This document shows positions 1 to 6,766 of a stretch of 6,766 bases of DNA, in pieces. The translations under genes and the position numbers were made by a program. Positions within the stretch are counted from its first letter, which is position 1. Each line of letters begins with the position of its first letter. Under the pieces are notes generated by a model that saw nothing but the letters and a program-made list of their open reading frames with translations, made no database searches and was not told where the DNA came from. Source of the stretch: Marinagarivorans sp. UBA5870. Lineage in GTDB: Bacteria > Pseudomonadota > Gammaproteobacteria > Pseudomonadales > Cellvibrionaceae. The stretch covers positions 2,994 through 9,759 of the forward strand of contig DJFO01000259.1 of the NCBI GenBank assembly GCA_002432555.1, in the 5' to 3' direction.

Positions 1-794
1 TGCGGTACCCGGTGGTCGGTTGTTATGGGGATATAACCGGAGTAGTAGACGCGCTTGAGTTTTTGTTTCTGATAGAGATTGTCCGCGAGCTGCAGTATTT
101 GATGATCGCTCTCTGGCGTTGCCCCAACGATCAGCTGCGTGCTTTGTCCAGCCGGCAAAAACAGTGGGTCTTTGCGGCGTTTGCGCTCTTGATAATTCTC
201 CTTTTCTCCACGCAGGTAATTCATCGGGTTGATAATGTCCGGATAATTCTTTTCCGGCGCCACCTTTTGCAGGCTCTGCTCAGAGGGAATTTCGATATTC
301 ACGCTCAGCCGGTCGGCATAGAGGCCGGCCTCGTGCAATAACTCCGGGCTGGCTCCGGGAATCGCCTTCAGGTGGATATAGCCGTTGAAATTATGCGTCT
401 GGCGCAGAGTGCGCGCCACCCGCACCAGCCGCTCCATGGTGTAATCCGCGCTTTTGAAAATGCCGGATGAGAGAAACAGTCCCTCGATATAATTGCGCCT
501 ATAGAAGTTGATGGTGAGATCCACCACTTCCTCCACCGTAAACGCCGCCCGACGCACGTCGTTGCTGCGCCGGCTGACGCAATAGGCGCAGTCGAAAATG
601 CAGTGATTGGTGAACAGGACCTTCAGCAGCGAAACGCAGCGGCCGTCTTCCGTGTAGCTGTGGCATATGCCCACGCCTTCCGCATTACCCAGTCCCTTAT
701 TGACATTGGCTCGCTTGCTGCCGCTGGAAGAGCAAGAGGCGTCGTATTTGGCCGCGTCGGCAAGGATGGAAAGCTTTTGGAGAATCTTTGTCAT
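1..794 (-). CDS. Putative DNA modification/repair radical SAM protein (UDG-linked family), C-terminus cut by window edge
   Basis: Reading the minus strand from ATG at 794 gives 264 open codons to the left edge without a stop. The protein starts MTKILQKLSILADAAKYDAS, followed by a CSSSGS stretch, then GICHSYTEDGRCVSLLKVL. Residues 65-72 are CIFDCAYC, the CX3CX2C motif that binds the radical SAM 4Fe-4S cluster. Further blocks (FYRRNYIEGLFLSSGI, TMERLVRVARTLR, GYIHLKAIPGASPELL, PAGQSTQLIVGA, RVYYSGYIPI) match what I know of the TIGR03916 family, 'putative DNA modification/repair radical SAM protein', distantly related to spore photoproduct lyase. Family members are roughly 400 residues, so about a third is missing. 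They are typically encoded beside a uracil-DNA glycosylase-like protein, which would lie left of this window. The reaction is not established. The start is supported by family N-termini and by the LexA box just upstream; no strong ribosome binding site is visible. Cytosolic; family assignment is firm, the repair role is inferred. Confidence 0.92.
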   Translation of the reverse strand, partial: MTKILQKLSILADAAKYDASCSSSGSKRANVNKGLGNAEGVGICHSYTEDGRCVSLLKVLFTNHCIFDCAYCVSRRSNDVRRAAFTVEEVVDLTINFYRRNYIEGLFLSSGIFKSADYTMERLVRVARTLRQTHNFNGYIHLKAIPGASPELLHEAGLYADRLSVNIEIPSEQSLQKVAPEKNYPDIINPMNYLRGEKENYQERKRRKDPLFLPAGQSTQLIVGATPESDHQILQLADNLYQKQKLKRVYYSGYIPITTDHRVP

Positions 795-806
795 ATCTTT
801 GGTGCT

Positions 807-826
807 GGCTGTTTTTATATACAGTA
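807..826 (-). promoter_or_regulatory. LexA (SOS) box upstream of the radical SAM gene
   Basis: Read on the minus strand, 809-824 is CTGTATATAAAAACAG, flanked by TA on its 5' side. It fits the gammaproteobacterial LexA operator CTG-N10-CAG, with an AT-rich core and the favoured CTGT...ACAG arms. It ends 12 bp before the ATG at 794, a normal place for an operator that blocks transcription. The gene is therefore probably repressed by LexA and induced by DNA damage. Confidence 0.82.
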
Positions 827-848
827 TCAAGATACGGCAGGAAGTCAA
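821..848 (-). promoter_or_regulatory. Candidate sigma-70 promoter for the radical SAM gene
   Basis: On the minus strand a TTGACT hexamer (843-848) is followed after 16 bp by TACTGT (821-826), which forms the outer edge of the LexA box. A -10 element inside a LexA operator is the usual arrangement at SOS promoters. An alternative -35, TTGATA at 825-830, has no convincing -10 at the right distance. The leader would be only about 20 nt. Confidence 0.45.
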
Positions 849-1008: not shown

Positions 1009-4000
1009 TCACCGGGTATTCCCAAACCCAATCGATCCCGAGCAATGCAGCCACTCGCTCATGGCACCGCCGCCACAGCGGAAATTGCTCCACACGCCGG
1101 TATTATCGCTTTGGGCTTCGGCCTGACGGGTTTGCCCATTGACGACTATATAATCTACCTGCACATCGCGGCCGGTGGCGTCGTTGGTAAAGGCGACCCG
1201 CAGGGTGCCGTTTAACTCCGTCGTAGCGCTATAAGTGGCCATTGTGGTGGTGGGCGTCCAGGTTTGCACAGTGGTGCCCGCCACTTGCAGGCTGACCGAC
1301 TCGGTTCCCGCCGTGCCGCGCATGCGCACTTGGATCGTATTCAGCGCCGCCCCGCCCGATGACGAGCTGCTGCTCGACGAACTCGAAGTTGAGCTGGAGG
1401 AACTGGTCGACGAGGAACTGGAAGAACTGGAAGAACTGGAAGAACTGGAAGAGCTGCTCGAAGACGAACTGCTCGAAGTGCTCACACCACCGCAGCCCAC
1501 AATACCCCCACAGGGATCCGCAGCTCCCTCAACCAAATACATGTTGTCCATATATACATCGTTCAGATTGCCCCCGACATTCATGACCAACCGCGCATTC
1601 GTGAGAGACGTATGCATGGGGAAGGTGTGGACAAACCGCTTCATCTGCGTGGTGAGCGCCTGGCCGGTGCCGATCTGGGAGAAATCTTCCCAGGGCGACA
1701 CCGCACGCTCAACTTTAATTTCCGCGGTGCGCCCGGCGGGCGCGCGCGCATCAAAAGCCAAGGTATAAGTTTTACCGCTGGTTAAACCTATGCCCGACTG
1801 TCTCGGTTGTATATCCCAGGGGTTGCTGCCGCCGTTGGTGATATTCACAAAAAATTGCCCGTCCACCACGCTGCAAGTCGCCGACCCGGCGTTGACCGTG
1901 CACTGCCATCCGCTGGTGCCGCCGGCGAAATTGCCGTTGGTAATAAGGTTCTTTGGGCTCTGTAGAGTGGTGGTCACGGCATTGGCGGTGACATGACTCG
2001 AAGTGCCAACGCTGTTGAAGGCCTCGACCCAAAAATAGTAGCGGGTGCCGGCGGCAAGGCCGGTGGCGGTAAATCCCGTGGTATCCGCGGGCAGGGTAGT
2101 CAGAGCAGTGGCGGGCTTGGTGCTCGTAGTTGAACGATAAATGCTAAAACCCTGCTCTGCGCGCGTGCCACTGGAATTATCCGTCCAGCCCAAATGTATG
2201 CTCGAGGCGTTAGTTGCCTGCGCGCTCAGATTACTCGGCGCAAGTGGTGGACTCAGTGAGCCACCGCCGGCTCCCAGTGGGTCGAGCGCCAAAATGGCCG
2301 GCGCCACTTCGGTCGTGAAATAGGCCACGGGCACCAGGGCCGCGTTTGCATCTATGGAGATTTCGCGGGACGCCCAGCCGGTTCCCGTGCGCGCAAACAT
2401 TTTTAAACCGGGTAGGGAATTGAATGCCGGCATGGCGGAATCGTCGGCATTGGTCCAATTGTTGGGGCCGAGCACGAGTTTTCCCGGCCATGTGTTGGCG
2501 CTGTCGGCCGAATCGTGCGTGCGTTCAACGGCATTTTCAAATTTGGCCGTATAACCGTTTGCCGTGTACATCGTCAGATTCATGGCGTTGATGCCGGAAA
2601 TATGGTCCAGCACCTGGATGGCGCCACGCGCATAAGCCGCGGCAGCCGCGTTTGCGCCGGCGGCTTTTTCAATTTCCGCCGCCGCCATCAAAATGCGCGC
2701 GTCGTTTAAAGCCATCCGGTGCGATCCCCAGCGAACATTATTATCCGCGCTGTCCTGATCACCGCTGTCCCAATGATTGGAGGAGGGGTCCCAGGTTACG
2801 CCTGGGTACCCCAGCGCCTGATTGGAGCGGATTTCATTCGCCTTGGCGATAATATTGTTTTTCAAACTGCTCAGATTCAGGCTGTGCAGGGACTGGTTAC
2901 TCAGCAGGGAAAGGTTGGCCTCCATCACCACGGCTCCCCACCAAAAAGACGAAGCCTCGTTAAAGCGCGGGTGGCCGATGATCTGCGCCGACAGTGCGGC
3001 GGCGTCCGCGCCTATTCCCAATTTTAGGGCGGCGAGATAATTTTCGACGAGAGCCGCGTACTCGTCGTCCTGAGTGTTGTTGATGTCGGTAACGCAGTTA
3101 TCTCGGAAGGACTTCGGGTGGCGAAAAATACTGTAATTATCGTTGTCCGGGTACATGCCGCCCTCGCCGCCAAAAGCTTCCGCCTGATTGCACACCAGGG
3201 ATTCACTGCGCGCATTGTTCAGGGCGGTTTTGGCTCGCTGGTAAACCGCGCTTGCGGTGCTGGTTGTGCCGTAAACCTGATGCAGTCGCGCCATGCCTGC
3301 CAGCGCCCGCGCAGTGGCGAAAGTCGCTTTAGTCTCTGGTTCCGCCACGCAGGTACCGCTGGTGTGCGGCGCGCAGGCCGCCCAAGTGGAATTGACCACT
3401 GTGTGGAATTTGGGAATTGCCAGTTTTCCCCCGTGCGCCAGCACGTGATTGAATTGTTCCGTCAATACCGTCAGCTGCTGATAAACCGTGCGAGCGCCGG
3501 TAAAGCGGGTGCTGTAGTAGGTGTTGATGGCCGGATAAGTTTCCAGCACGTTGATTAGTGCCCAAGCGGCCTCCGCCGTATTGACGGGGTAGGCGCCGTT
3601 GTCACCGGCATCCCGCACGTAATTAAAACTTATAGCGAGGCCGGTCTGCCAATTGTTCTTGGTATTGCGAAAAGTGGCTGAGGTTTCGTGGTCTCTGAAG
3701 TAATCAAAAAACTCGTATTTTATATTCCCGTAAGGATCGCTGCCGATATCGAACGGGGCCGACTGATCCGTGCCCACCACTAAACGCAGGTTGGTGCCTT
3801 CCTCAACGCAGGCGGAAAAATCGATTTGATAGAAGCTGTCGCCGGAGCTTCGATCGTTGGCGACGTAAGTATCTTCGACACCGCTGCAGGCCGTTCCGGC
3901 AACCGACCAGCTGATAGGGCCGGTATTGCTGCCCAAGTAGAGAGCCAGTTTGTTTGCCTGCGGCAAGTAACCGGCGTAATTGAGGCGAAATTTACTGCTC

Positions 4001-4092
4001 ATTTGGCTGCCGTTGTCCACCGCCTGGGCGTCGGCAAACGGAAGTGATAAAACGCAGCTGATGAGGATTAGATCAATCGGACGAGTTGACAC
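1009..4092 (-). CDS. Secreted modular glycoside hydrolase family 9 enzyme (probable endoglucanase) with FnIII, CBM4/9-like and CBM60-like modules
   Basis: This 1027-residue protein probably cleaves beta-1,4-glucan outside the cell. Residues 1-24 look like a signal peptide (hydrophobic ILISCVLSLPFA, cleavage near ADAQA). Residues 34-115 resemble the CelD_N Ig-like domain preceding many GH9 catalytic domains. The GH9 domain spans about 125-600: DAGDNGAY at 161-168 carries the paired Asp residues (D161, D164; base and water-binding), and REISIDANAALV at 576-587 carries the expected acid, E577. An FnIII domain covers 617-709 and a CBM4/9-like domain 714-856 (NLITNGNF...GTSGWQC). A 42-residue Ser/Thr linker (871-912) leads to a CBM60-like module at 917-1022 (FTNDATGRDVQVDYIVVNG, EWLHCSGSIGFG), a family of calcium-dependent xylan/galactan/cellulose binders. 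The start is GTG with AGGAGGT five bases upstream. The usual GH9 PHHR signature is not evident, so substrate may differ from plain cellulose. Signal peptide strength is moderate. Confidence 0.88.
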   Translation of the reverse strand: MSTRPIDLILISCVLSLPFADAQAVDNGSQMSSKFRLNYAGYLPQANKLALYLGSNTGPISWSVAGTACSGVEDTYVANDRSSGDSFYQIDFSACVEEGTNLRLVVGTDQSAPFDIGSDPYGNIKYEFFDYFRDHETSATFRNTKNNWQTGLAISFNYVRDAGDNGAYPVNTAEAAWALINVLETYPAINTYYSTRFTGARTVYQQLTVLTEQFNHVLAHGGKLAIPKFHTVVNSTWAACAPHTSGTCVAEPETKATFATARALAGMARLHQVYGTTSTASAVYQRAKTALNNARSESLVCNQAEAFGGEGGMYPDNDNYSIFRHPKSFRDNCVTDINNTQDDEYAALVENYLAALKLGIGADAAALSAQIIGHPRFNEASSFWWGAVVMEANLSLLSNQSLHSLNLSSLKNNIIAKANEIRSNQALGYPGVTWDPSSNHWDSGDQDSADNNVRWGSHRMALNDARILMAAAEIEKAAGANAAAAAYARGAIQVLDHISGINAMNLTMYTANGYTAKFENAVERTHDSADSANTWPGKLVLGPNNWTNADDSAMPAFNSLPGLKMFARTGTGWASREISIDANAALVPVAYFTTEVAPAILALDPLGAGGGSLSPPLAPSNLSAQATNASSIHLGWTDNSSGTRAEQGFSIYRSTTSTKPATALTTLPADTTGFTATGLAAGTRYYFWVEAFNSVGTSSHVTANAVTTTLQSPKNLITNGNFAGGTSGWQCTVNAGSATCSVVDGQFFVNITNGGSNPWDIQPRQSGIGLTSGKTYTLAFDARAPAGRTAEIKVERAVSPWEDFSQIGTGQALTTQMKRFVHTFPMHTSLTNARLVMNVGGNLNDVYMDNMYLVEGAADPCGGIVGCGGVSTSSSSSSSSSSSSSSSSSSSSSSSTSSSSSTSSSSSSSSSSGGAALNTIQVRMRGTAGTESVSLQVAGTTVQTWTPTTTMATYSATTELNGTLRVAFTNDATGRDVQVDYIVVNGQTRQAEAQSDNTGVWSNFRCGGGAMSEWLHCSGSIGFGNTR
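1357..1482 (-). repeat. Poly-serine linker coding tract with 9-bp tandem repeats
   Basis: This tract encodes residues 871-912 of the GH9 enzyme, all Ser except three Thr. The core, 1412-1456, is five copies of a 9-bp unit (GAAGAACTG on the plus strand, with single-base variants in the first and last). On the coding strand this alternates AGT, TCT and TCC serine codons. Flanking serine codons are more mixed (TCG, AGC), so the central array looks recently expanded. Poly-Ser linkers joining catalytic and binding modules are typical of Cellvibrio and Saccharophagus secreted enzymes. Confidence 0.9.
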
Positions 4093-4504: not shown

Positions 4505-4825
4505 TGAACAATTTAATTTTAATGGTTATGGAATTTCTGATCGGTAGGCTCGCCTAAAAATAGCACTAGCGAAAAGTAGGACTTTCTCGATACGTACGCG
4601 CAGAAGATTCTGCATCAAAAGCTCAGAACACTGACGGCTCGATTTCTGGGATCGCCGGTCCATGAACACCTGGCACCCATCGACTAGCGGTAAACCTGAA
4701 AGACAACCAGAGCGCAGCACGTCGAATCCGCAAGTAAGCGTTAAGTCAGCTATCGCCGCAATCTAGAGGGCTAACGCGCTTAGACTTTCTTCCCTAGAAA
4801 TCCTCAGGGTGCTCTGATTTCAGCA

Positions 4826-5133
4826 ATGGGAACTTATACGAATGCCTCCGGAACCTACGCGCTGATAGATTTGAATAACCGGCTGTGCTTGGATGTAGCT
4901 TAGGCGACAACCAACGCCCGACGGATTTACAGCGGTGGTGGTGCAATGGGGATCCAGCTCAGCAATGGCAGTTGACTTGTTCAAGTTCGTCAACAGATGG
5001 GCTGCTTATTCTTCGGCGCAATAAGGAGTCTTTTCACCAGGCAAATTCACTCGCGTCATCTATGGCGAAGGAGTGTTATCTGGCCCGCAAATTTATGCTT
5101 GAACTATGCTTACCTGGAGATGATGCGCCTTAG
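4826..5133 (+). pseudogene. Frameshifted remnant of a ricin-type beta-trefoil (CBM13-like) lectin domain
   Basis: From ATG at 4826 one frame reads MGTYTNASGTYALIDLNNR and then LCLDVA before a TAG at 4901-4903. The neighbouring frame continues LGDNQRPTDLQRWWCNGD and then PAQQWQLT (about 4900-4977). Together these give the hallmark order of a ricin B repeat: GTY..., CLDV, then W.CNG....QQWQLT. So one domain is split by a shift of one base near 4892-4903. A third frame then reads FKFVNRWAAYSS (4980 on), which resembles the start of the next trefoil repeat, suggesting a second shift. The second frame stops at 5131-5133 after sequence with no recognisable domain. Such domains normally bind sugars as add-on modules of secreted hydrolases; no catalytic domain is visible upstream, so this is a stranded fragment. 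A sequencing error could explain one shift but hardly the missing remainder. Confidence 0.65.
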
Positions 5134-5175
5134 CAGTATCGCTCCCTTCAAAGAAGCAAAGGTTAATCAGCATTG

Positions 5176-6766
5176 ATGTATCGCAAGTGCTCGGCAACGC
5201 CGCCCCCTGTCAGCGACTGCCCGGCGAGTAAATACTTTTTGCCAAGGGGATGGACCGGGCCTCTGGCATCATTGCACCGGTTTTCCAGGGCAGTACTCGG
5301 CTCGGCGTCCGGCTGGCGCACCTGCGCACTCATTGGGTTGTTCTGGTTGATGTCTGGCCCTGCCATAGGCACCGCACAGACCCAGAGCGCGGCCAATGTG
5401 CAACAGCTGCTGGAGAATATGCGTTTTCAGCGCTTATTGACCGGGGAGGATGACAGCCAAAAGGGTGGCATCGGTGTGGTGTTTTCCATAACGCAGGATG
5501 CCACTGGCTTTCTCTGGTTTGGTGGTGATTCCGGACTCGCCCGGTACGATGCCCATACCTTCAAGTTTTATAAGGCCGACGCCAAAAATCCTCGCGCACT
5601 CGCGAGCACTTGGGTCAGGGACATGCGGGTCGATCGTGACGGCGTACTTTGGTTGGCCACCGACGGCGGTCTCAGCCGATATAACCCCGAAACCGACGAC
5701 TTCACTACAGTGCAAGCTAAGGGCGATGCGGACCTGCATTTGCTGTCGGATCTGGTGACCGCGCTGGCGGTGGACAGCCACAACAACCTTTATATTGGCA
5801 CCGGCGACGGGCTTACTGTCTTCAACCCTCAACGCAGCGCTGCACACCATTATATCGGCGATGCCAATCGTCCCGACGGTCTAGGGGCGGGCGGCGTCTC
5901 GGCCCTGTTTGTGGATGCCGAGGACCACCTGTGGATCGGCACAGCCGGCGGCGGCCTCAGCCGGTTGGAACCCGCTACACAAACATTTCAAAACTGGCGG
6001 AATGATCCCGCCGACCCCAGCTCCCTCGTGCACAATTTTGTTGACCGCATCAGCCAGGACAACAAAGGCCGAATCTGGATTGCCACGCGCGGGTATGGTC
6101 TGGCGCGACTATTGGAAGACGGCCGCGGTTTTAAAACTTACCGCCACGATCAGGGTAACCCGAGCACGATCGGCAGTGACATTGTCAGCGACATCCACTT
6201 GGATCGGCGCGGTAACCTCTGGATTGCGACTGACCATGGCGGTCTGGCGCTTTATCACGAGGGCAGCGACGCGTTCTTTCACGTGCGTCACCACGTCTAC
6301 GATCGGACCACCCTTCACACCGATCAGCTCCGCCGGATCTATGAAGACCGCGACGGCAACCTATGGCTGGGCGGAGTACCTACCGGCGTCAGTTTCTATG
6401 ACGTCGCCAAGGACCGATTCCGCACTCTGACCCATCAGCCTGATAATCCCAACAGCCTCGACCACAATGGGGTGCTATCGCTGCTGCAGGACCGGGAAGG
6501 ACTTATTTGGATCGGAACAGAAAGGGGCCTGAACGCCTACAACCGACACACCAGGCAGTTCACCCGCTACCAACCCAACCCCAAAGATCCCGATAGTTTG
6601 CGCTTCGGCGCGATCACTGCGCTGACGGAAGACAGTGACGGCGCATTGTGGGTAGGCAGCTGGTCTGGCGGCCTGCACCGGTTTGATAAACGCACTGGCA
6701 AATTTAAGAACTACTTCCCCGACCCCGCCAACCCAAACAGTCTCGTGGGCGCGCACATATGGAACA
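5176..6766 (+). CDS. Periplasmic two-component-regulator propeller sensor, N-terminal part (output domain off the window)
   Basis: The frame is open from ATG at 5176 (in-frame TAA at 5164) to the right edge, 530 codons. A hydrophobic segment at residues 50-67 (ALIGLFWLMSGPAIGTA, then QTQSA) looks like a signal peptide or anchor. From residue 103 there are at least nine repeats of the Reg_prop type, each with a core like QD..G.LWIGT..GL.RYN: DATGFLWFGGDSGL, DRDGVLWLATDGGL, SHNNLYIGTGDGL, AEDHLWIGTAGGGL, NKGRIWIATRGYGL, DRRGNLWIATDHGGL, DRDGNLWLGGVPTGV, DREGLIWIGTERGL and DSDGALWVGSWSGGL. Linkers of the type 'DPANPNSL' between blades are also typical. Complete proteins usually have about 14 blades in two propellers, a Y_Y_Y domain, a membrane helix and a GGDEF or histidine-kinase output; which one applies cannot be seen. 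The start is uncertain: ATG 5176 gives a 67-residue leader, while TTG 5272 would give a normal 35-residue one, but neither has a good ribosome binding site. Confidence 0.88.
   Translation, partial: MYRKCSATPPPVSDCPASKYFLPRGWTGPLASLHRFSRAVLGSASGWRTCALIGLFWLMSGPAIGTAQTQSAANVQQLLENMRFQRLLTGEDDSQKGGIGVVFSITQDATGFLWFGGDSGLARYDAHTFKFYKADAKNPRALASTWVRDMRVDRDGVLWLATDGGLSRYNPETDDFTTVQAKGDADLHLLSDLVTALAVDSHNNLYIGTGDGLTVFNPQRSAAHHYIGDANRPDGLGAGGVSALFVDAEDHLWIGTAGGGLSRLEPATQTFQNWRNDPADPSSLVHNFVDRISQDNKGRIWIATRGYGLARLLEDGRGFKTYRHDQGNPSTIGSDIVSDIHLDRRGNLWIATDHGGLALYHEGSDAFFHVRHHVYDRTTLHTDQLRRIYEDRDGNLWLGGVPTGVSFYDVAKDRFRTLTHQPDNPNSLDHNGVLSLLQDREGLIWIGTERGLNAYNRHTRQFTRYQPNPKDPDSLRFGAITALTEDSDGALWVGSWSGGLHRFDKRTGKFKNYFPDPANPNSLVGAHIWN

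Follow-up and report, generated by a model that had tools for sequence, protein, structure and literature searches.

A putative LexA operator precedes a TIGR03916 radical SAM gene in a gammaproteobacterial contig and in most of its LexA-bearing relatives

The window, that is, the whole stretch of 6,766 nucleotides analysed here, begins with a radical SAM gene of the TIGR03916 family on the minus strand. A palindrome of the LexA type and a possible promoter lie directly in front of its start codon:

3..794, minus strand: TIGR03916 radical SAM gene, first 264 codons, cut by the window edge (449 bits against a cut-off of 343.5)
809..824, minus strand: predicted LexA-type operator with a CTGT-N8-ACAG core, CTGTATATAAAAACAG on the gene strand (pattern, matrix score of 24.1, conservation)
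821..848, minus strand: possible promoter, TTGACT (848-843), 16 bp and TACTGT (826-821), with 8 of 12 matches

The plus-strand letters at 809-824 are CTGTTTTTATATACAG, and the gene strand, read from 824 to 809, matches CTGT-N8-ACAG perfectly, confirming the CTGT...ACAG box that an earlier note on this DNA had placed before the gene. The note had set the box 12 bp from the ATG. With the start codon at 794-792, we measured 14 bp to the 16-bp core, and 12 bp is obtained only if a 20-bp operator is assumed. It had also described a plausible -10 element overlapped by the box; the overlap is there, since the candidate TACTGT (826-821) runs into the operator, but the promoter as a whole stays at 8 matches, and a stricter scan requiring 9 of 12 detected no promoter. 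Promoter-like pairs overlap the box in 45 of 55 upstream regions, a count that lacks a control and was set aside as evidence. Assigning the box to some other gene was considered and rejected: upstream, the neighbouring gene is encoded on the same strand and stops at 1009. The ORFs at 603-1142 and 667-978, which run in the opposite direction, extend into the radical SAM gene and were not accepted as genes.

Judged by the bare pattern, the box is weakly surprising: when one mismatch is allowed, the window has three hits where 1.82 are expected, and as many occur in 50 of 200 shuffles. Scoring was then based on a matrix of 54 distinct boxes from the lexA promoters of relatives, for which the radical SAM gene was not used. 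The site at 809-824 scores 24.1, equal to the best training box and 15 points ahead of the runner-up in the window (8.6). The second perfect pattern match, at 5929-5944 within a gene, scores 3.1, and the best score in 300 Markov-random windows was 14.9.

Relatives came from overlapping sets, in which the TIGR03916 gene occurred in 38 of the 390 genomes in an order sampled around Halopseudomonas, in 10 of 21 genomes of one genus (Cellvibrio or near it, taken from the names), 29 of 144 genomes of that genus's family and 11 of 369 genomes of the class (family-model search). Besides the window, the sample comprised 74 genomes represented by one gene each, including the MAG loci L055 and L069; ten repeat loci (L081-L083, L096, L115, L117, L124, L151, L158 and L159) were excluded. 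LexA (TIGR00498) was detected above its cut-off in 60 of the 74 genomes, one of which has an unreadable upstream region (a run of N). With the threshold set at 14.8, close to the 5% point of the training-box scores, a box was present before the gene in 53 of the 59 readable LexA-bearing relatives, with a perfect core in 43, and its distance to the start, as placed by alignment, was 8 to 40 bp in 45 of the 53. No good site was found in the remaining six (L130, L149, L152, L153, L155 and L157); L130 has a one-mismatch box 175 bp upstream, and in L153 the lexA promoter carries the palindrome TTAGTAGTAATACTACTAA in place of the usual box. For comparison, the box of lexA itself, within 250 bp, is perfect in 40 of the 60 LexA-bearing genomes, has one mismatch in 17 and is neither in 3 (41, 17 and 3 of 61 promoter loci, the one lexA of G429 being counted twice among the loci). 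The scan of orthologue upstream regions suggested in the earlier note, run here in gammaproteobacteria, thus leaves its proposal of LexA control standing, and the comparison with relatives supports that proposal strongly at the level of sequence.

The window's own lineage follows the same trend, as 11 of its 13 relatives have a site scoring at least 14.8, nine of them with a perfect core; the exceptions are L149, which scores 9.6, and L147, which is unreadable. The nearest relative, L122, has a box with one mismatch and a TTGACT-16-TACTGT layout identical to that of the window, and the three genomes nearest by tree path (G518, G400 and G404) all encode LexA. In L121 (G395), from the same genus, the gene belongs to a distant, different lineage, 62% identical to the window's, and its box is perfect. 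The sister genomes L148 and L149 of the window's lineage have kept the right arm of the box and differ at two positions in the left arm, L148 scoring 17.5.

None of 13 genomes without LexA above the cut-off (G003 and G332 have a weaker match) has the box, the best score among them being 8.4. The association between LexA and the box gives a Fisher p of 3.8e-10, or 1.5e-9 without L069, values that are too good given the relatedness of the genomes. Eleven of the LexA-less genomes cluster in one clade, together with a MAG titled Moraxella. The 13 make up a single clade in a tree of gammaproteobacteria only and occupy three places, one of them that of L069, once Bacteroidota are added, and the contrast therefore depends on few independent events. 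G409 has a perfect box, yet LexA was not found there. In the 13 LexA-less genomes, the best matches to a UmuDAb-type palindrome carry 3 to 5 mismatches, and this candidate was rejected; the same genomes have no perfect CTAA-N5-TTAG and a perfect GGA-N5-TCC solely before L069. This last locus, on a contig labelled Saccharospirillaceae, is a Flavobacteriaceae-like copy. Its position among Flavobacteriaceae in the tree, together with the GGA-N5-TCC upstream, makes it probable that the contig is misbinned. The lack of LexA in Acinetobacter is stated in the abstract of PMC7273328.

A palindrome in this position could also be an AT-rich inverted repeat that arose by chance, or belong to a general promoter element that has no LexA function, considering that the bare pattern is not rare in the window and that a -10-like hexamer lies inside it. 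A score of 24.1 is, however, out of reach of the 300 random windows, and the perfect cores of 43 of the 59 relatives compare with 0-0.15% in shuffled upstream regions and 0.17-0.45% in other segments of the same loci. Moreover, conservation is confined to the box, which holds 1.28 bits per position in 49 thinned upstream regions against 0.05 and 0.04 in the flanks, and the box is missing where LexA is missing. Its recurrence in front of this gene across relatives makes a chance origin untenable, and we rejected the chance repeat on matrix score and conservation; as a whole, this alternative is highly improbable. In its core, AT-rich middle, proximity to the start codon and fit to the lexA-promoter matrix, the box resembles known gammaproteobacterial LexA operators, from which it differs in the gene behind it, one for which the E. 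coli control genome gave no match. Among 14 control genomes, the TIGR03916 gene was present in two, Caulobacter and a Bacteroides.

Copies of the gene in other bacterial groups are preceded by other motifs. Among 158 plasmid records with a copy, nine were examined upstream, and a perfect GAAC-N7-GAAC was found just upstream in all six alphaproteobacterial copies (0 of 575 control segments) and a perfect CTGT-N8-ACAG in all three betaproteobacterial ones. The Bacteroidota sample consisted of the 77 loci closest to the query, with several genera repeated; here a perfect CTAA-N5-TTAG occurs in 29 of 77 upstream regions (control 0.34%), GGA-N5-TCC in 9 (control 2.8%) and CTGT-N8-ACAG in none (control 0.14%). 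As the gammaproteobacterial and betaproteobacterial, alphaproteobacterial and Bacteroidota copies each have their own motif, the gene appears coupled to LexA by three or more dissimilar motifs, which links this enzyme family to DNA damage. Among viral sequences, 12 stretches matched a pattern, and none of the 12 encodes a relative.

Taken with the conservation in relatives, these data point with high confidence to 809-824 being a LexA operator through which the radical SAM gene would be repressed, and induced by damage along with its downstream partner. LexA bound at this site would repress the gene, probably by covering the -10 region; upon DNA damage, activated RecA would promote the self-cleavage of LexA, and the gene would be switched on. 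A TIGR03915/DUF4130 gene is expected just downstream and would very probably be switched on together with it. LexA binding and induction are predictions here, as are the presence of LexA and of the partner in the source genome. The gene thus probably belongs to the emergency response to DNA damage, which would narrow its candidate substrates to lesions or replication errors that occur during SOS. The earlier note regarded LexA control as a sign of lesion repair; this is a step that we infer, since mutagenesis and cell-cycle control are also among the functions of SOS genes.

The full-length copy P0001 (411 residues, 649 bits against the cut-off of 343.5) carries the CxxxCxxC motif as C65, C69 and C72, all conserved without exception in 27 Bacteroidota and gammaproteobacterial sequences. 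Beside it, the N-terminal cysteines C21, C44 and C53 of P0001 are also invariant in the 27 sequences and might possibly form a second metal site. A TIGR03915 partner adjoins the gene in the relatives L084, L001, L086 and L156, and in L122 the adjoining partner is matched by DUF4130; the window ends inside the gene, before the partner. The earlier note had spoken of a glycosylase partner, but tests in three relatives from the window's lineage identified the partner as TIGR03915/DUF4130 and found no UDG domain in it.

The same note's specific likeness to spore photoproduct lyase gained no support from our searches: none of the 16 NCBIfam matches with E up to 10 is an SplB family, a PDB sequence search returned one weak HydG match, and the best 50 fold matches of each of two tables, headed by lipoyl synthase and HydE, do not include SplB. 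A distant link to SplB is possible. The enzyme could be an SplB-like lyase that directly reverses a UV photoproduct under SOS control, as splB is elsewhere. The radical SAM core is compatible with this, SplB-like radical SAM photolyases adjoin DUF4130 in the accessible part of PMC3765255, and splB (COG1533) is predicted to be under LexA in alphaproteobacteria and betaproteobacteria in that of PMC3323433. Control of a radical SAM protein by LexA is thus common to both cases, but the families differ, and in the same part of PMC3323433 SOS control of splB was not seen in gammaproteobacteria. Considering the family and fold matches, we find an SplB-like activity distinctly unlikely, with the caveat that fold alone neither proves nor excludes a substrate.

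Under another alternative, LexA does control the gene, but its product, rather than repairing lesions, makes or installs a DNA modification or has a part in SOS mutagenesis. The NCBIfam name reads 'modification/repair'. In the accessible sections of PMC3765255, DUF4130 is a predicted mutagenesis-related enzyme, linked to SplB-like radical SAM proteins and glycosylases, with a guess at thymine modification, and those of PMC8565304 suggest a glycosylase system for ribonucleotides left by error-prone polymerases. SOS control is compatible with repair as well, and we hold a role in modification or mutagenesis to be the less likely option, though one of some weight. For the repair reading, less certain steps are that the enzyme may bind DNA through its C-terminal helix-hairpin-helix motif, that a SAM-derived radical may change or reverse an altered base, and that the DUF4130 protein, which in certain other lineages is fused to a UdgX domain that binds uracil, may act at the same site.

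A tree of 66 sequences falls into two halves, one with alphaproteobacterial, betaproteobacterial and 14 gammaproteobacterial copies, the other with 27 Bacteroidota copies, the window's lineage and the LexA-less type. Within Bacteroidota, the window's lineage groups with two Bacteroidia MAGs, one of them from Saprospiraceae (97/91), and a single gammaproteobacterial clade is rejected (p-AU 3e-26). The simplest reading of this tree is a gene transfer from Bacteroidota to gammaproteobacteria followed by a change of operator, the direction being one that we infer, given the midpoint root. The window's gene was thus probably acquired from Bacteroidota and afterwards placed under the host LexA, which makes it a probable example of horizontal transfer with later capture by the regulator of the new host. 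Counting against a neat version of this transfer, the nearest Bacteroidota sequences, L002 and L046, have no perfect CTAA-N5-TTAG. A perfect copy of this motif is absent from six sequences of the window's lineage. It is conceivable, if somewhat short of an even chance, that the radical SAM/DUF4130 pair constitutes a separate, damage-induced pathway of DNA base repair, passing between phyla and adopting the LexA motif of each host, with copies in LexA-less genomes going without the motif. If so, its repeated rewiring would imply that the pair depends on damage-timed expression for its function.

We take COG4277 to be the TIGR03916 family. SOS control of this gene pair is already published for three other groups: in the accessible part of PMC8565304, the COG1573-COG4277 pair is SOS-controlled in Verrucomicrobia and Alphaproteobacteria, with evidence in Bacteroidetes, and gammaproteobacteria are not mentioned for the operon. 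Both systems have a LexA-type site before the pair; in the published operon, however, the partner belongs to the UDG superfamily, whereas the window has the CTGT-N8-ACAG motif and the tested relatives have the DUF4130 partner. In a literature search from which subscription papers mostly fell outside, LexA control of the TIGR03916 family in gammaproteobacteria or betaproteobacteria was not found. As far as the literature was searched, the extension to these two groups and the rewiring of the operator are therefore new. Laboratory-friendly relatives exist in which the family can be tested.

Elsewhere in the window, the minus-strand gene at 1009-4092 encodes a large protein of the secreted type that matches CelD_N, fn3, CBM4_9 and CBM60 and contains a long poly-serine linker; at roughly residues 110-615, Pfam searches up to E 1 gave no GH9 catalytic-domain match. 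At about 4819-4971 on the plus strand, a frame with an inner stop contains the stretch CxxGDxQxxxxLQRWWCNGDPAQQWQ, which resembles a carbohydrate-binding lectin module that may have decayed. The plus-strand region 5173-6766, cut by the window end, encodes the N-terminal part of a protein in which Reg_prop repeats (two-component regulator propeller) are numerous.
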